From: Micromonospora luteifusca
GTDB taxonomy: Bacteria; Actinomycetota; Actinomycetes; Mycobacteriales; Micromonosporaceae
Assembly: GCF_016907275.1 (NCBI RefSeq)
Contig: NZ_JAFBBP010000001.1
Span: forward strand, 2,160,001 to 2,224,000
DNA: 64,000 nucleotides
Direction of reading: 5' to 3'
Shown here: positions 12,872 through 46,654 of the stretch, piece by piece
Layout: each line of letters begins with the position of its first letter
Position numbering within the stretch: position 1 is the first letter of the stretch
Translations under genes and position numbers: made by a program
Notes under the pieces: model-generated
Databases searched by the model: none
What the model saw: the letters and a program-made list of their open reading frames with translations, nothing else
What the model was told of the DNA's origin: nothing

Positions 12872-13264
12872 TCAGCTCAGCGGGACCAGGGTGAGCAGGC
12901 GATCCCGCACCGGTGGGCCGGCGTCGTCGACGGCGTCCGGGTCCGGTTCGACCTCGCCGCGCCAGGCGACCAGCATCGCCCGCCGCTCGCGGGGCGTAGT
13001 GGCACCCCAGACGCCATGGCAGTCACCGACGTCGAGGGCCCAGGCCAGGCAGGACCCCTGCACGTCACAACTGCGGCACAGCGCGACGGCGGCGTCCGCC
13101 GGCTCGTTCGGTGCCGGAAAGAATGTCTCCGGATCGACCGCCTGGCAGGTGCCTCTGGTGCGCCATGCGTCGTCCTGTCGTCGTTCCCGCACGGCCCGCA
13201 GCAATCGCGGATCTCGCCGCGCCGCAGCCACCTCGTGCGGGCGGGGCATACGCGCCCGTGTCAT
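12872..13264 (-). CDS. WhiB-family iron-sulfur transcriptional regulator
   Basis: A 130-residue protein. Four cysteines bind a [4Fe-4S] cluster: one before DPETFFP, then CRSC and the last after five residues (DVQGSC). The tryptophan turn HGVWGATTPRERRAM follows. The ATG at 13264 is preferred over an upstream GTG because GGGGGAGGTGG precedes it and homologous sequence begins there. WhiB proteins bind the domain 4 of the primary sigma factor and regulate development or stress genes. Which WhiB class it belongs to is not certain; it lacks the AT-hook of WhiB7. It sits next to the SRAP gene. Confidence 0.88.
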   Translation of the reverse strand: MTRARMPRPHEVAAARRDPRLLRAVRERRQDDAWRTRGTCQAVDPETFFPAPNEPADAAVALCRSCDVQGSCLAWALDVGDCHGVWGATTPRERRAMLVAWRGEVEPDPDAVDDAGPPVRDRLLTLVPLS

Positions 13265-30170: not shown

Positions 30171-30244
30171 TAGCGGGGACAGGATTTGAACCTGCGACCT
30201 CTGGGTTATGAGCCCAGCGAGCTACCGAGCTGCTCCACCCCGCG
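30171..30244 (-). tRNA. tRNA-Met(CAT), initiator type, copy 1
   Basis: A 74-base cloverleaf on the minus strand with anticodon CAT in loop CTCATAA. The anticodon stem CTGGG/CCCAG has the three G-C pairs that mark initiator tRNA, and the first base C1 faces T72 without pairing, another initiator mark. CCA is not encoded. TAAGGT lies 17 bases before the 5' end as a probable -10 element. The sequence is identical to the second copy at 30391-30464. Confidence 0.93.
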
Positions 30245-30390: not shown

Positions 30391-30464
30391 TAGCGGGGAC
30401 AGGATTTGAACCTGCGACCTCTGGGTTATGAGCCCAGCGAGCTACCGAGCTGCTCCACCCCGCG
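30391..30464 (-). tRNA. tRNA-Met(CAT), initiator type, copy 2
   Basis: Identical over 74 bases to copy 1, including the GGG/CCC anticodon stem and the C1/T72 mismatch. TACGGT lies at the same distance before the 5' end as TAAGGT does in copy 1 (shared pattern TAxGGTTA), so each gene seems to have its own promoter and terminator. Two identical copies probably set the dosage of initiator tRNA. Confidence 0.93.
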
Positions 30465-40870: not shown

Positions 40871-41983
40871 ATGAGCCGCACCGCACTGCCCCGCCCCACG
40901 CTGCTGCCCGGGCTCAACCGGCTCTGGCGAGACCGACACACCCTCCAGCTCGGCGTCGGCCCCGGGCCCGCTGTGCTGCTGGAGCTGGCCAACCCCCGCG
41001 CCGCCCACCTGCTCGACCTGCTCGACGGCACCCGCAGCGAGCGCGCCGTGCTGGCCGAGGCGGCCACCGCGCGGGTCACCGCCGACGACGCGCGTACCCT
41101 GCTCGACGCCCTGCGGGCGGCCGGTCTGCTGGTGTCCGCGCACAGCCTGCTCCCCCGTGACCTGGCCGGCGCGGTCCGTGCCCGGCTCACGGCGGAGGCC
41201 TGCGCGCTGGCCCTGACCGCCGCTCGACTGCCCGGTACCCCTGCTCAGGTCCTCCGTCGGCGGCGGGCCGCCCGAGTCGTGCTCACCGGCGCCGGGGCGC
41301 TCGGCGGGCCGCTGACGGTGGCACTGGCCCAGTCGGGCGTCGGGCAGGTGATCCCGCTGCTCACCGGCCCGGTACGCCCCGTCGACCTGGTCGGCACGGG
41401 CATCCCCGCCACCGAGCTCGGCCACCCGCTGGCACCGGCGGTGCGGGCCGCGGTCGACCGCCTCGCGCCAGGCACCGGAACCCGGCCGGGCCGGACCGGC
41501 CGGGTGGACCTGGTGATCCAACTCGGCACCGACCGGCCGACCGCGCTGCTCGCCGCCGGTCTCGCCCAGCGCCGGCAGCCACACCTGCTGGTCACCCTGC
41601 GCGAGGGCGTACCGGTCGTCGGGCCGCTGGTCCGCCCACCCGCCGGGCCCTGCCTGCACTGCGTCGAGCTGCACCGGGCCGACCGCGACCCGGACTGGCC
41701 GCGGCTCGCCGCCCAACTCGCCGCCGCCGACCCGGTGGCCGCCGGCGCGACCGGCACGCTGCTCGCGGCCATCGGGTACGCGCTGGCCGAGGCGCTGACG
41801 CAGCTCGACGGCGGGCAGCCGGAGACACTGGGTGGGGCCATGGAGATCACCGGTGCCGGCCGTTTCCGTCGCCGGGGCTGGCCGCCACACCCGGCATGTG
41901 GGTGCTCGCAGGGACGAGTGTCCGCACCAGCCCGGCCGCAGAGCAGCAGCGGGGCCCTCCGGTCGGTAACAATGACCGGGTGA
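40871..41983 (+). CDS. ThiF-like protein with RRE-type N-terminus (TOMM leader-binding-like)
   Basis: A 370-residue protein. Residues about 1-95 (RPTLLPGLNRLWRDRHTLQL, then a winged-helix-like part) resemble the leader-peptide-binding module of azoline-forming RiPP enzymes. The rest is an E1/ThiF-like Rossmann fold with VVLTGAGALGGPL. It lacks the usual Asp and Arg that bind ATP after the second strand, so adenylation is doubtful. Two Cys pairs for zinc remain (GPCLHC and PACGC). No YcaO or precursor gene is near. ATG 40871 is chosen by similarity; ATG 40850 and GTG 40865 are in frame too. Its stop overlaps the next start (GTGA). Confidence 0.7.
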   Translation: MSRTALPRPTLLPGLNRLWRDRHTLQLGVGPGPAVLLELANPRAAHLLDLLDGTRSERAVLAEAATARVTADDARTLLDALRAAGLLVSAHSLLPRDLAGAVRARLTAEACALALTAARLPGTPAQVLRRRRAARVVLTGAGALGGPLTVALAQSGVGQVIPLLTGPVRPVDLVGTGIPATELGHPLAPAVRAAVDRLAPGTGTRPGRTGRVDLVIQLGTDRPTALLAAGLAQRRQPHLLVTLREGVPVVGPLVRPPAGPCLHCVELHRADRDPDWPRLAAQLAAADPVAAGATGTLLAAIGYALAEALTQLDGGQPETLGGAMEITGAGRFRRRGWPPHPACGCSQGRVSAPARPQSSSGALRSVTMTG

Positions 41984-43326
41984 CCGACATCCCGCGCCGC
42001 GCCGTGTCCCGCACCGCCAAGCTCGCCGCCCTGCCGCTCGGCTTCGCCGGCCGGACCGTTCTCGGCATGGGAAAGCGCGTCACCGGGCTCGCCTCCGACG
42101 TGATCTCCGCGGAGATCCAGCAGCGCACCGCCGAACAACTGTTCAGCGTGCTCGGCCAGCTCAAGGGCGGGGCGATGAAGTTCGGCCAAGCGCTGTCGGT
42201 CTTCGAGGCGGCACTGCCGGAGGAGATCGCCGCGCCCTACCGTCAGGCGCTCACGAAGCTTCAGGAGGCGGCACCGCCGCTGCCGGTCGCCAGCGTGCAC
42301 AAGGTGCTGACCGAGCAGCTCGGCCCGGACTGGCGGGACCGGTTCGTCGAGTTCAACGACGTCCCGGCCGCCGCCGCCAGCATCGGCCAGGTCCACCGGG
42401 CACGGTGGCGGGAGCCGGGGTTCGACGAGTCGGGCGCGCCGAACAGCCGCGACGTGGCTGTCAAGATCCAGTATCCGGGCGCCGGGGAGGCGCTGCTCGC
42501 CGACCTGAAACAGCTCTCCCGCCTGGCCGGGATGTTCCGGGCCATCCAGCCCGGTCTGGACGTCAAGCCGCTCCTGGTCGAGCTGCGCGAGCGGATCACC
42601 GAGGAACTGGACTACGAGCTGGAGGCCGAGTCGCAGCGCACCTTCGCGGCCGCGTACGCCGACGACCCGGAGATCTACATCCCGAAGGTGGTCCACGCGG
42701 CGCCTCGTGTGCTGGTCACCGAGTGGGTGACCGGCACTCCGCTGGCTGACATCATCCGCGAGGGCACCGAGGAGGATCGGGACGAGGCCGGCCGGTTGAT
42801 GGCCACCCTGCACCTCTCCGCGCCACAGCGGGCTGGGCTGCTGCACGCCGACCCGCACCCGGGAAACTTCCGGCTGCTGCCCGACGGCCGACTCGGGGTG
42901 ATCGACTTCGGCGCGGTGGCCCGGATGCCGGAGGGCACGCCGGAGCCGATCGGTCGCATCGCCGCGCTGGCCCTGAGTGGGGATGCCGACGGGGTGGTGG
43001 CGGGGCTCCGGTCAGAGGGCTTCATCGGCTCTGCGGAGGAGATCGACGCCGAGGGGGTGCTCGACTTCATCCGTCCGATGCTGGAGCCCATCGCGGCGGA
43101 CGGGTTCCGGTTCACCCGGGCCTGGCTGCGGGGCGAGGCGGGCCGACTGGCGAGTCCCCGCTCCCCCACGTACCAGCTGAGCAGGCAGCTCAACCTGCCG
43201 CCGTCGTACCTGCTGATCCACCGGGTGACGCTCGGATCGATCGGGGTGCTCTGCCAACTGGAGGCAAAGGCCCCGTACCGCAGCATCCTGGAGCGCTGGC
43301 TGCCCGGCTTCGCCCCGGTCGCCTGA
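41980..43326 (+). CDS. ABC1/UbiB-family atypical kinase
   Basis: A 448-residue member of the ABC1 (ADCK/UbiB) protein-kinase-like family. The KxGQ motif reads KFGQALSVFEAALPEE, the Ala-rich loop is ASIGQVHRARW, the Lys is in VAVKIQYPG, and catalytic and metal residues are in HADPHPGNFR and VIDFGAVA. Relatives support ubiquinone or menaquinone synthesis and lipid homeostasis as ATPases. Here GTG 41980 overlaps the ThiF-like stop, so the two are co-translated. A homologue (Rv3197) sits beside whiB7 in M. tuberculosis and is linked to macrolide tolerance, as I recall. Confidence 0.88.
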   Translation: MTDIPRRAVSRTAKLAALPLGFAGRTVLGMGKRVTGLASDVISAEIQQRTAEQLFSVLGQLKGGAMKFGQALSVFEAALPEEIAAPYRQALTKLQEAAPPLPVASVHKVLTEQLGPDWRDRFVEFNDVPAAAASIGQVHRARWREPGFDESGAPNSRDVAVKIQYPGAGEALLADLKQLSRLAGMFRAIQPGLDVKPLLVELRERITEELDYELEAESQRTFAAAYADDPEIYIPKVVHAAPRVLVTEWVTGTPLADIIREGTEEDRDEAGRLMATLHLSAPQRAGLLHADPHPGNFRLLPDGRLGVIDFGAVARMPEGTPEPIGRIAALALSGDADGVVAGLRSEGFIGSAEEIDAEGVLDFIRPMLEPIAADGFRFTRAWLRGEAGRLASPRSPTYQLSRQLNLPPSYLLIHRVTLGSIGVLCQLEAKAPYRSILERWLPGFAPVA

Positions 43327-43619: not shown

Positions 43620-43985
43620 TCAGGCTGCCAGTCGGACCGCGCCACGCACCTCGGACAGCCCAGTGGCCGCCAGGCGCGCCTCGGCCTCGACCCGAAGTGC
43701 GGCGTCACGGGCGACGTCCTCCTTACGCGGACGGCCACGGGGCCGCTTACGCGGGACAACCGCGCCACGCTCGAAGATCTCGCCGCCCCAGACGCCCCAC
43801 GGCTCGGCCCGCTCCACCGCCCCGGCCAGGCACTCGACGCGCAGCGGGCAGTCCCCGCAGAGCGACTTGGCCAGCTCGAGCTCGGCAGGCGAGTCGGAGA
43901 ACCACAGGTCGGGGTCGAACTTCCGGCAGGGCAGGTTCGCCTCCATTTCGACGCTCACGTCGAGGGGGGCCAACGCCAGACTCAT
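43620..43985 (-). CDS. whiB7: WhiB7 antibiotic-resistance regulator
   Basis: A 121-residue WhiB protein. Fe-S cysteines are Cys20, Cys43, Cys46 and Cys52; the turn is EPWGVWGGEIFERG (about 62-73); the C-terminus carries the AT-hook KRPRGRPRK (about 80-88), the mark of WhiB7. WhiB7 binds the primary sigma factor and AT-rich DNA just upstream of -35 and activates ribosome-protection, efflux and other resistance genes. It is switched on by ribosome-targeting antibiotics through its leader. Here the leader has an 82-codon frame and a terminator/antiterminator pair (see 44049-44149). Confidence 0.94.
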   Translation of the reverse strand: MSLALAPLDVSVEMEANLPCRKFDPDLWFSDSPAELELAKSLCGDCPLRVECLAGAVERAEPWGVWGGEIFERGAVVPRKRPRGRPRKEDVARDAALRVEAEARLAATGLSEVRGAVRLAA

Positions 43986-44048
43986 CTCCCGGTCACCTCT
44001 CTCTCACTTCGATCTCGTGGATCGCATTCCGACGTACTTACGGCGGGC

Positions 44049-44091
44049 AAAAACAAAGGCCGCGGATCCCGGTAAGCGGGTTCCGCGGCCT
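44049..44091 (-). terminator. Intrinsic terminator (attenuator) in the whiB7 leader
   Basis: On the minus strand a 15-bp stem (44091-44077 with 44071-44057, one mismatch) with a 5-base loop is followed at once by UUUGUUUUU (44057-44049). This is the best intrinsic terminator in the window and sits 64 bases before the whiB7 start, where it would stop transcription before the gene. Confidence 0.85.
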
Positions 44092-44149
44092 CGAGGTGAG
44101 CCGGTGTCTGATGGTCAGACCGGTTTACCTCGAGGTGGAACGCCGCGGA
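44082..44149 (-). promoter_or_regulatory. Antiterminator structure of the whiB7 leader
   Basis: Minus-strand RNA can pair UCCGCGG (44149-44143) with CCGCGGA (44088-44082) and CCUCGAGG (44135-44128) with CCUCGAGG (44096-44089). Inside, CCG-GUCUGA pairs with UCAGAC-CGG around the leader reading frame's UGA (44117-44115). The 3' strand of this structure contains the 5' arm of the terminator stem, so the two cannot form together. A ribosome reaching the UGA would disrupt this structure and allow termination. Confidence 0.7.
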
Positions 44150-44363
44150 CATCCATGCGCTTCTTGGCGACCTGGATGCCATTGCCCGTGAAGCCACTGG
44201 TCCCCTCGACTCCGGCGGGCGCGACGGTCAGGATCAGCTCGGCCTGAACCTGGTGCACCTGCGGAACCGACGGTCGTGCAGCCGTGAGGGCCACTCGGAC
44301 AGCCGACAGCGGAGCGAGGACAGACGGCATCGCCGTCAGACGCTCATAGGTGAAGATCTTCAC
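44115..44363 (-). CDS. 82-residue leader reading frame upstream of whiB7
   Basis: A GTG start with GGAGGTGG six bases upstream opens an 82-residue frame (MKIFTYERLTAMPSVLAPLS...) that ends in TGA inside the antiterminator hairpin. It has no recognised domain; it is rich in Val, Ala and Arg with a basic C-terminus (VRGVPPRGKPV). Position and stop-codon placement suggest a regulatory upstream reading frame sensing ribosome speed, though it is long for that and may also make a stable protein. Confidence 0.6.
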   Translation of the reverse strand: MKIFTYERLTAMPSVLAPLSAVRVALTAARPSVPQVHQVQAELILTVAPAGVEGTSGFTGNGIQVAKKRMDVRGVPPRGKPV

Positions 44364-44449
44364 GGGTGCCACCTCCCTCACGTTCCTCGAATCGACCGGA
44401 CCAACCCCGATGAGCAGCCGGAATGGCGCCGCTCGCGTGGTGTGTCCTG

Positions 44450-44489
44450 AGGCTATTCCTCGCGCTGGGGCGAGGGCAAACGAATTTAG
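44450..44489 (-). promoter_or_regulatory. Candidate whiB7 promoter with AT-rich WhiB7 site
   Basis: On the minus strand TTGCCC (44479-44474) and TAGCCT (44455-44450) are 18 bases apart. Just upstream of the -35 is CTAAATTCG, an AT-rich patch rare here, placed as WhiB7 binding sites are in mycobacteria. It abuts the uvrD2 stop codon and would give a leader of about 450 bases. Confidence 0.55.
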
Positions 44490-46654
44490 GACGAGATTTC
44501 GAAAGTTTTCTCCGGGCAGACGTCGTCCACCCCCGCGCCGCCCACCAACGCCAGCACCGACTCCCCGTAGAGGCCCAGCTTGCGGGGGCCGATACCAGCG
44601 ATGGCGATCAAATCCTCCGACCGGCCAGGTCGCCGCTCGGCCAGCGCGACAAGCGTCGCGTCGGTGAAGACCACGTACGCCGGGACCTTCTGCGCCCCGG
44701 CGACCCGTTGCCGCCACTCGCGCAGCCGTTCGTGCAGCTCGTCGTCGATGTCGGACGGGCAGGTGGGGCAGCGGCCGAGCTTGCGGTCGGGGCCGGCGAG
44801 CAGCGTGGCGCCGCAGATCCGGCAGGAGACGATCTGGGTTCGACGCCGCTCGGTGCGTTTGGCCGCCGGACCGGCGCCGCTGACGGCCCGTTCGGTGCCG
44901 CCGGAGCGGTCGAGCTGGGGCAGGAACCGCGACGGCCGCCGGGCTCGTCCGCCCGGTGAGCGCGCGACGGCGTACGACAACCAGAGCCACTGTCGTGCAC
45001 GGGTGATCCCGACGTAGAGCAGTCGGCGTTCCTCCTCGACCTGCTCGACGGTCTTGGCGTACGTGGTCGGCAGGGTGCCCTCGGCGAGACCGACCAGGAA
45101 GACCGCGTCCCACTCCAGCCCCTTGGCCGAGTGCAGCGAGGCGAGGGTCACCCCGTCCACCGTCGGTACGTGCTGCTGGGCAGCCCGGCGGGCCAGCTCC
45201 TCGGTGAAGTTGGAGAGGGTGACGGGGCGTTCCACCGACGCGGCCTCACCGATCGGCACGACCTCGGGGGTGGCCGCGTACTCCTCGGCGAGCTGGACCA
45301 GCGCGGACAGCGCCTCCCAGCGTTCGCGGGCGGCGCCACCGGCCGGGGGCGCGTCGGGGGCCCAACCGACCGCGGTGAGCGCCTCGACGACGGCGGTCGG
45401 CAGCGGGGTCTCCCCGGGGATCGATCGGGTGGCGGCGCGCAACGCGACCATCGCCTGGCGCACCTCGGCCCGCTCGAAGAACCGTTCGGCGCCCTGCACG
45501 ACGTACGGCACCGCGGCCTCGGTGAGCGCCTTCTCGTACGCCTCGGACTGCGCGTTGATCCGGAACAGCACGGCGATCTCCTTCGCCGGCGTGCCCGCGT
45601 CGATCAGCGACCGGCAGCGTGCGGCCACCGCGTTCGCCTCGGCCGGCTCGTCGGTGAAGATCCGCAGATCCGGCTCGGGGCCGGGTGGGCGTTGCCCGCT
45701 CAGCTCCAGCCGCAGCCGTGCCTCGGTGCCCCGGGCCTGGGAGATCACCGCGTTGGCGAGCCCGACCACCTGCGGCGTGGAGCGGTAGTCGCGGACCAGC
45801 CGGACCACGGTGGCGCCCCGGTGCCGGCGGGGGAAGTCGACCAGGTACGCCGAGGTCGCCCCGGTGAACGAGTAGATCGTCTGGCTGGCGTCACCGACCA
45901 CGGTCAGGTCGTTGCGTCCGCCCAGCCAGGCGTCCAGCAACCGCTGCTGGAGCGGGTTGACGTCCTGGTACTCGTCGACCACGAAGTGCCGGTACTGGCC
46001 ACGGACCTGCTCGCCGACATCCGGGTGCTCCTCGATGCCCCACACCGCGGCGCGCAGCATGTCCTCGAAATCGATCACGCCGTTCGAGCGTTTGAGCTGC
46101 TCGTACGCGGTGAACACCTCGGCCACCTTGGCCGGCTCGTGCGGTGTGTCGCGCAGTGCCCGGGCCGCGGAGACCACGTAGTCCGTCGGCTCGACCAACG
46201 ACGACTTGGCCCACTCGATCTCGCCGGCCAGGTCGCGCGCCGCGGCCCGGTCGGTGCGCAGGCCGACCCGGGCCGCGGCGAGGGTGACCAGCCGTACCTT
46301 GCTGTCCAGCAGTTCGGGCATGGCGCGGCCGGCCAGCAGGCGGGGCGCGAAGTACCGCACCTGGCGCAACGCCGCCGCGTGGAACGTGCGGGCCTGAACG
46401 CCCTTCACCCCGAGTTGGGCGATTCGGTGTCGCATCTCGGCGGCGGCGCGGGCGGTGAAGGTGACCGCGAGCACATGCCGAGGGGAGATCTCACCGGAAA
46501 GAGCACGATGGGCGATCCGGGAGGTGATCGCCCGGGTTTTGCCGGTGCCCGCGCCGGCCAGGATGCAGACCGGCCCGGCGGGTGCGGTCACGGCGGAGCG
46601 TTGCTCCGGGTCCAGCCCGGCGAGCACCTGTTCCGACGCTGAGTGAACCACCAC
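44486..46654 (-). CDS. uvrD2: ATP-dependent DNA helicase UvrD2
   Basis: A 722-residue SF1A helicase. Motifs: Walker A LAGAGTGKTRAITSRIAHRA, Ia AVTFTARAAAEMRHR, II VVDEYQDVNPLQQ, III VVGDASQTIYSFTGA, IV, V (TLASLHSAKGLEWDAVFLVG) and VI (LLYVGITRARQWLWL). The C-terminus has a tetracysteine zinc motif (CRICGATLL...CPTC) and an HRDC domain (about 640-715), the marks of UvrD2 of mycobacteria as against UvrD1. It unwinds 3'-tailed DNA in repair. GTG start at 46654. It diverges from mrx1 and precedes the whiB7 promoter. Confidence 0.93.
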   Translation of the reverse strand: MVVHSASEQVLAGLDPEQRSAVTAPAGPVCILAGAGTGKTRAITSRIAHRALSGEISPRHVLAVTFTARAAAEMRHRIAQLGVKGVQARTFHAAALRQVRYFAPRLLAGRAMPELLDSKVRLVTLAAARVGLRTDRAAARDLAGEIEWAKSSLVEPTDYVVSAARALRDTPHEPAKVAEVFTAYEQLKRSNGVIDFEDMLRAAVWGIEEHPDVGEQVRGQYRHFVVDEYQDVNPLQQRLLDAWLGGRNDLTVVGDASQTIYSFTGATSAYLVDFPRRHRGATVVRLVRDYRSTPQVVGLANAVISQARGTEARLRLELSGQRPPGPEPDLRIFTDEPAEANAVAARCRSLIDAGTPAKEIAVLFRINAQSEAYEKALTEAAVPYVVQGAERFFERAEVRQAMVALRAATRSIPGETPLPTAVVEALTAVGWAPDAPPAGGAARERWEALSALVQLAEEYAATPEVVPIGEAASVERPVTLSNFTEELARRAAQQHVPTVDGVTLASLHSAKGLEWDAVFLVGLAEGTLPTTYAKTVEQVEEERRLLYVGITRARQWLWLSYAVARSPGGRARRPSRFLPQLDRSGGTERAVSGAGPAAKRTERRRTQIVSCRICGATLLAGPDRKLGRCPTCPSDIDDELHERLREWRQRVAGAQKVPAYVVFTDATLVALAERRPGRSEDLIAIAGIGPRKLGLYGESVLALVGGAGVDDVCPEKTFEISS

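Follow-up and report, generated by a model that had tools for sequence, protein, structure and literature searches.

The whiB7 leader of Micromonospora luteifusca: a probable ribosome-controlled transcription attenuator of the actinobacterial whiB7/wblC type

Organization of the whiB7 leader

We analyzed a 64,000-nucleotide stretch of the single-contig, 7.16-Mb genome of Micromonospora luteifusca (NZ_JAFBBP010000001.1, positions 2,160,001 to 2,224,000; hereafter, the window), focusing on the leader of the regulatory gene whiB7. Across 44488-43620 the minus strand carries, in order, a predicted WhiB7-type promoter, an upstream open reading frame (uORF), a CCUCGAGG helix with the uORF's UGA in its capping hairpin, a predicted terminator, and whiB7. 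All leader elements given below lie on this strand.

The regulated gene (43620-43985, minus strand, ATG at 43985) matches the Pfam family Whib at 1.1e-13, finds WhiB7 7kif as its product's best sequence match in the PDB (E 1.9e-34), and outscores the five other WhiB-like matches in its own genome by a wide margin. On these three grounds we call it whiB7, and the leader lies directly upstream of this whiB7 orthologue. The protein's closest named match is from Micromonospora sp. U21 (99% identity). One of the five weaker genome matches is also in the window, a weak WhiB-family match at 12923-13150 (minus strand; 31% identity, E 3.5e-4).

The predicted WhiB7-autoregulated promoter (44450-44488) combines a TAAATT box at 44488-44483, a -35 element TTGCCC at 44479-44474 and a -10 element TAGCCT at 44455-44450. 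The WblC box is given in the accessible text of PMC7157823 as GAAAWY, 3 nucleotides upstream of -35; TAAATT, upstream of -35, agrees with it at five of six positions. The same promoter pattern occurs in 49 of the 72 Micromonosporaceae leaders long enough to be examined (44 of 116 were too short) and in none of 1440 mononucleotide shuffles.

The uORF (44115-44363) has 82 codons (VKIFTYERLTAMPS...DVRGVPPRGKPV). It starts with GTG at 44363 behind its own ribosome-binding site, the Shine-Dalgarno sequence GGAGG at 44372-44376, and ends just before the terminator with UGA at 44117-44115. Its 3' end contains the candidate antiterminator 5' strand (44137-44149), composed of UCCGCGG at 44149-44143 and GUUCC at 44141-44137, followed by the 5' arm CCUCGAGG of a helix termed P1 (44128-44135), which spans Pro-Arg-Gly codons and was assigned from pairing, covariation and codon choice. 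A predicted stop-codon hairpin at 44101-44123 (CCGGUCUGA/UCAGA.CCGG) holds the UGA, and the second CCUCGAGG, the 3' arm of P1, occupies 44089-44096, its final GG shared with the terminator stem. Folding and co-evolution point to the terminator 5' arm, GGCCGCGGAACCCG plus the next base (44076-44090), as the segment contested by the antiterminator. The predicted intrinsic terminator itself (44049-44091) stands between uORF and whiB7 and ends in the U-tract UUUGUUUUU at 44057-44049.

A first-pass annotation of this DNA had described an 82-codon frame, a terminator at 44091-44049 and alternative pairings, and each of these was located. The proposed 15-bp terminator with a U tail is present, but its stem has 14 pairs with one mismatch instead of 15 clean pairs: 10 pairs plus CCCG/CGGG, separated by an A.A mismatch (-28.4 kcal/mol for 44091-44049). 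The alternative structure can also be traced as drawn, with an outer helix of UCCGCGG (44149-44143) and CCGCGGA (44088-44082), the CCUCGAGG pairing of 44135-44128 with 44096-44089, and an inner hairpin at 44123-44101 around the stop codon. To these we add a shifted antiterminator register, in which GCGG and GUUCC (44146-44143 and 44141-44137) pair with GGAACCCGC (44084-44076), i.e., GCGG.GUUCC with GGAAC.CCGC. No Rfam family reaches its gathering score in the leader; the only hit, BSR0739, is at chance level (16.2 bits vs. 191).

Constraint on the leader within Micromonosporaceae

At a threshold of E 1e-40, whiB7 was found in 275 of 300 Micromonosporaceae genomes. We compared 118 family leaders, including that of the window; some genomes are represented twice, in named and unnamed collections, and 106 leaders are distinct over 170 nucleotides. 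Alignment A1 contains 106 rows, namely 105 of the 106 distinct modules plus the window, with L153 left out. A uORF was called in 116 of the 118 leaders (106 distinct), L153 and L158 giving none, and all but one start with GTG or ATG; a Shine-Dalgarno sequence of at least five bases precedes the automatically picked start in 95 of the 106 distinct uORFs. Automatic start picking overcalls some frames (L037 is given 142 codons, 82 from the conserved VKIF start), and the other family lengths, 61-138 codons, are approximate. The codon and hairpin tables omit L151, where the uORF call fell in another frame; the count of codon usage elsewhere in the uORFs omits L037 as well.

The position of the stop codon is tightly held. 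Measured from the terminator GGCC, its first base lies at -37 to -21 in every one of the 116 uORFs called in the family, and exactly 18 nucleotides past the start of the CCUCGAGG arm in 95 of 105 distinct ones. In 104 of the 105 it falls inside a predicted hairpin of at least four pairs. Within this hairpin, the G of UGA is opposite C in 67 of 77 cases and the A of UAG opposite U in 8 of 13, while the second base of UAA is unpaired in 13 of 15.

Covariation across Micromonosporaceae leaders, a check that the first-pass annotation had proposed, was found for P1 and the shifted register, but the outer helix as drawn shows none beyond shuffles. In P1, 99.4% of 848 cells (106 sequences) are paired, with seven compensatory two-sided changes (0 of 500 shuffles). 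The shifted register is 91.1% paired, against 14-56% in slid versions, and likewise has seven double-changed cells (0 of 500 shuffles). The outer helix is 88.7% paired, with slid versions at 31-45%, and its core GCGG/CCGC alone is conserved; the shifted register is the better-supported antiterminator. RNAalifold on A1 gave a covariation term of only -0.36, with the inner hairpin misaligned and arms that hardly vary.

The covarying rows also bear on a different kind of explanation, that the CCTCGAGG palindromes serve as regulator-binding DNA operators instead of RNA arms. Two perfect 8-bp palindromes, near-invariant in the family, are what an operator pair might look like. In L127, L141 and L157, however, the P1 arms are CCTCGAAG with CTTCGAGG: each copy loses its palindromy, yet the two stay complementary to each other. 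On the strength of these rows we rejected the operator reading of CCTCGAGG, to which we assign almost no weight.

Selection at the RNA level can also be read from the uORF codons. The encoded peptide diverges in its middle and varies in length, and its end is fixed: Gly -3, Pro -1, Pro 0 and Arg +1 are invariant in 115 uORFs (duplicates included). Third-position entropy is 0.07 at the paired codons -4, 0 and +1, compared with 0.90-1.75 at the unpaired codons -3, -1, +2 and +3. At codon -4 the amino acid varies, with GC as the last two bases in 101 of 105 distinct uORFs. CCU and CGA are each used in 104 of the 105, although in the rest of the uORFs CCU makes up 4.5% of Pro codons and CGA 16% of Arg codons, and GUU accounts for 71 of 90 valine codons at -2 vs. 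20% elsewhere. This third-position constraint at paired codons points to RNA-level selection inside the uORF. As a separate observation, codons that are uncommon elsewhere in family uORFs precede the stop over 44138-44124, comprising CCA (6.7% of Pro codons) together with CCU and CGA at the frequencies just given. Position +3 is AAA in the window and AGA or AGG in 90 of 105 distinct uORFs; AGA and AGG elsewhere make up 0.4% and 4.3% of Arg codons.

Class-level co-evolution and the attenuator model

Beyond the family, a terminator close to GGCCGCGGA(A)CCC..GGGAUCCGCGGCC precedes whiB7 in 66 of 70 loci under an automatic rule. The four loci for which the rule gave no terminator (L106, L112, L115 and L200) were dropped, although three of these, all from Mycobacterium, show a comparable stem. 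A uORF was obtained for 60 of the 66 loci and none for six. Searched over -90 to +30, the stop falls at -37 to -18 from the terminator in 58 of the 60 uORFs, and it lies within a predicted hairpin in 57. Some of these uORFs share recognizable ends: W[SG]PP occurs within the last six residues in 20 of 60 (L177, L178, L183, L184, L186-L188, L190-L192, L195, L197-L199, L201-L203, L213, L214 and L220), and in group f19, of five loci, four uORFs end in PWSDPA and one in PWRDPA. A second data set, A2, is a hand-picked diverse subset of 85 rows.

We compared uORF 3' ends with terminator arms by a swap test, which scores the pairing energy of the uORF 3' end (-90 to -32) against the terminator arm after adjustment for the strength of both strand and arm. 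Family groups carry automatic labels, except that the named Pseudonocardiales were pooled as one group and the named Mycobacterium loci were placed with f2. Across 21 family groups and 183 loci, own pairs fit better than foreign ones (z -3.44, reached by 0.2% of permutations, with shared ancestry ignored); the segment -60 to -32 alone gives z -3.61, and the overall range is -3.44 to -3.65 (21 groups). Three upstream controls give -0.27, -1.13 and -0.97, the stop-hairpin region +1.91, and the test against the terminator loop plus 3' arm +0.73. Judged from these comparisons, the leader elements, their conservation and their class-level co-evolution are established, and an antiterminator built from the uORF 3' end and the terminator 5' arm appears to be evolutionarily maintained, within limits set by the energy controls and the within-family swap test described below.

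The predicted energetics call for a particular kind of switch. The minimum-energy fold of 44149-44049 (-49.1 kcal/mol) combines the terminator with a 7-bp P1 helix, so the mutual exclusivity claimed in the first-pass annotation holds for the outer helix, which uses the terminator 5' arm, but not for the CCUCGAGG helix, which can largely coexist with the terminator. Forcing the alternatives gives -44.4 for the outer helix and -44.9 for the shifted register. Before the terminator 3' arm is made, the 5' arm is held in the shifted register in ~0.92 of the ensemble and in the outer-helix register in ~0.08. When the ribosome is modeled as a barrier, arm sequestration is 0.55-0.96 with the A site at the codons sampled through 69 and 0-0.23 from codon 70 to the stop, compared with 0.66 in the ribosome-free case.

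Several results weigh against an attenuator with a dedicated antiterminator. Equilibrium favors the terminator by 4-5 kcal/mol; read-through therefore needs kinetic trapping, and on these models only a kinetic switch is plausible. The ribosome model yields no switch once pairing across the ribosome is permitted. Putting segments from farther upstream within a leader in place of its antiterminator strand gives a mean arm sequestration of 0.47 vs. 0.66 for the native strand (117 of 118 leaders). Of all these control segments, 27% match or exceed the native value, and the native strand outperforms 95% of its own controls in only 12 of 117 leaders. Among shuffled upstream sequences, 12% attain the window's duplex energy, and the corresponding fraction is 5% or lower in only 19 of the 118 family leaders and 17 of the 66 loci outside the family. 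The outer helix as first drawn has a single double-changed cell in the family, matched by 210 of 500 shuffles, and the third base of codon -2, paired in the shifted register only, varies (entropy 1.04; 69% paired). Finally, the swap test gives a negative result within the family, where it is flat (z -0.14, with two upstream controls at -1.69 and -1.45), on 43 sequences—the window plus 42 representatives, about one per genus—whose near-invariant arm leaves it little power.

The leader is GC-rich and its energy controls lie close to the observed values, so energy alone is no proof of a dedicated antiterminator, and we rejected single-sequence energetics as such a proof. The leader structures exceed chance weakly by single-sequence energy and clearly by conservation. 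The same figures nourish the proposal that there is no dedicated antiterminator at all: any GC-rich untranslated leader RNA would sequester the arm, and the ribosome would merely clear the RNA. Control segments holding the arm nearly as well and the missing within-family co-evolution signal both suit this proposal. It does not account for co-evolution that, across the class, involves just the uORF 3' end and the terminator 5' arm, or for codon choice locked at paired positions, and we consider it improbable.

We regard the leader as very probably a ribosome-controlled transcription attenuator of whiB7. Transcription would start at about 44443, a position taken from the -10 box, and RNA polymerase would proceed through the uORF and then the terminator. 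When the uORF is fully translated, a ribosome at the UGA, 27 nucleotides ahead of the terminator stem, would cover the P1 5' arm; the antiterminator strand would lose its hold on the terminator 5' arm, the terminator would fold, and transcription would end near 44049. When ribosomes stall within roughly the first 69 codons, or are not loaded, P1 and the stop hairpin would form, as would the antiterminator (chiefly GCGG.GUUCC paired to GGAAC.CCGC), ahead of synthesis of the terminator 3' arm, and polymerase would continue into whiB7. We infer the ribosome behavior, the termination and the drug response in this scheme. Because its middle diverges and its length varies, the uORF seems to report translation in general and not one codon. 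The first-pass logic, in which a finished uORF leads to termination and an early stall to read-through, gains comparative support and agrees with what the accessible reports state for whiB7/wblC.

In amino-acid operon leaders, a pause hairpin holds RNA polymerase for the ribosome. P1 and the stop hairpin might act here mainly in that way, retaining polymerase until the ribosome arrives, with antitermination secondary. A conserved hairpin immediately ahead of the terminator and the narrow stop-to-terminator distances would fit such a role, which is itself compatible with the attenuator model; it would leave unexplained why the uORF 3' end and the terminator arm co-evolve, and as the principal function we think pausing unlikely.

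More speculatively, and with considerable doubt on our part, the last dozen uORF codons may be doubly encoded, serving both the antiterminator and stop hairpin and a slowing of the ribosome. Uncommon codons (CCA, CCU and CGA, followed in most relatives by AGA or AGG) and Pro-Pro near the stop would slow the ribosome, and the terminating ribosome would be held ~27 nucleotides before the terminator until the terminator had folded. Pro-Pro motifs near the stop are GVPPRGRPV in most of the family and W[SG]PP in 20 of 60 non-family uORFs; the mycobacterial uORFs seen are without W[SG]PP. If this idea were true, the uORF would act as a translation meter that tolerates differences in length and carries its own parking brake, in many, not all, families of the class.

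A covariance model, R1, retained 11 pairs, all in the terminator. In the window's own genome it recovered the leader at 1.2e-22, the leader's reverse complement at 8.2e-6 and four weak matches (best 0.08), with 150 of 13837 candidates scored; under stricter filters, 22 of 119 phylum genomes, including this one, had matches at 0.01 or better. Eleven weaker matches were fetched. In 10 of these stretches a simple pattern detected no WhiB motif, and several resembled ordinary terminators. The other, L243 (G474:C1:680650-682150), from a genome labelled as the same phylum and not the same class, has a terminator-like stem and a downstream WhiB-like frame (CAKC..PWGVWGG), from which the whiB7 leader may be older than the class.

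Elsewhere in the window, an ABC1-kinase-like gene at 41896-43323 (plus strand) is convergent with whiB7; its best NCBIfam model is the macrolide-binding ATPase MABP-1 (506.6 bits, below the cut-off of 800). Together with a UvrD-like helicase upstream, it makes up what we take to be a resemblance to the M. tuberculosis whiB7 neighborhood. Two tRNA genes on the minus strand (30171-30244 and 30391-30464) have equal scores and starts 220 nucleotides apart.

Relation to known whiB7/wblC and other attenuators

Micromonosporaceae make many clinically used antibiotics, and the proposed switch would set the timing of their WhiB7 resistance programme. We found no description of a Micromonosporaceae whiB7 leader in the open-licence literature searched, whether in full text or in titles and opening lines of abstracts. 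The first-pass suggestion that an 82-codon frame with paired CCUCGAGG palindromes may be undescribed is nevertheless weakened: nearly all family leaders examined have both, long uORFs with a stop ~27 nucleotides before a near-identical terminator occur class-wide, and similar arms are found in group f11 (L179, with a variant form in L181 and L196). In these three loci (L179 1343-1445, L181 1371-1473, L196 1803-1905) the uORF ends in HPPRG.. or HPPRE.., and the CCTCGAGG-like arms resemble those of Micromonosporaceae. What the comparison gives a known mechanism is a testable geometry: a near-invariant terminator, a stop ~27 nucleotides upstream, a stop-codon hairpin, and an antiterminator strand co-evolving with the terminator arm across families. 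Worth following are two features, how narrowly the stop-to-terminator distance is held and the double use of the uORF end.

The window leader fits the known whiB7/wblC attenuator type already reported in other actinobacteria, and its arrangement is not peculiar to it. In the portions available, PMC10727445 describes actinobacterial whiB7/wblC leaders as a uORF plus an attenuator whose antiterminator forms from overlapping uORF and terminator sequence, and the mechanism is stated there and in PMC11550727, PMC9618640 and PMC13393426, all citing Lee et al. 2022. As represented by these citing papers, the system of Lee, Lee and Roe (2022) shares with the window a long leader, a uORF, a Rho-independent terminator and an overlapping uORF/terminator antiterminator, off at full uORF translation and on when translation stalls. 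Unlike the attenuator as reported in those excerpts, the window antiterminator encloses a strong CCUCGAGG helix and a stop hairpin; this is a sequence version of the class-wide layout, not new logic.

The mycobacterial whiB7 leader, according to the accessible part of Dinan et al. 2014 (PMC4128351), likewise has a uORF preceded by a Shine-Dalgarno sequence, attenuation at the uORF 3' end beside a conserved stem-loop with a U-rich tail, and a transcription start ~350 nucleotides upstream. The uORF calls for five named Mycobacterium loci run to 49-52 codons, fewer than in the window, and the terminators there are CCACGGA/UCCGUGG. M. tuberculosis whiB7 is also named, in the available text of PMC10937400, as the exception to the linezolid-caused loss of downstream transcription. 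Outside the whiB7 group, the attenuators of the ARE-ABCF genes tiaA and are5sc, as excerpted from PMC12421871, resemble the leader in that ribosome stalling on a leader uORF flips a terminator to an antiterminator; there the uORFs are very short, with stalling at the start codon, whereas the window uORF has 82 codons and a diverged middle.

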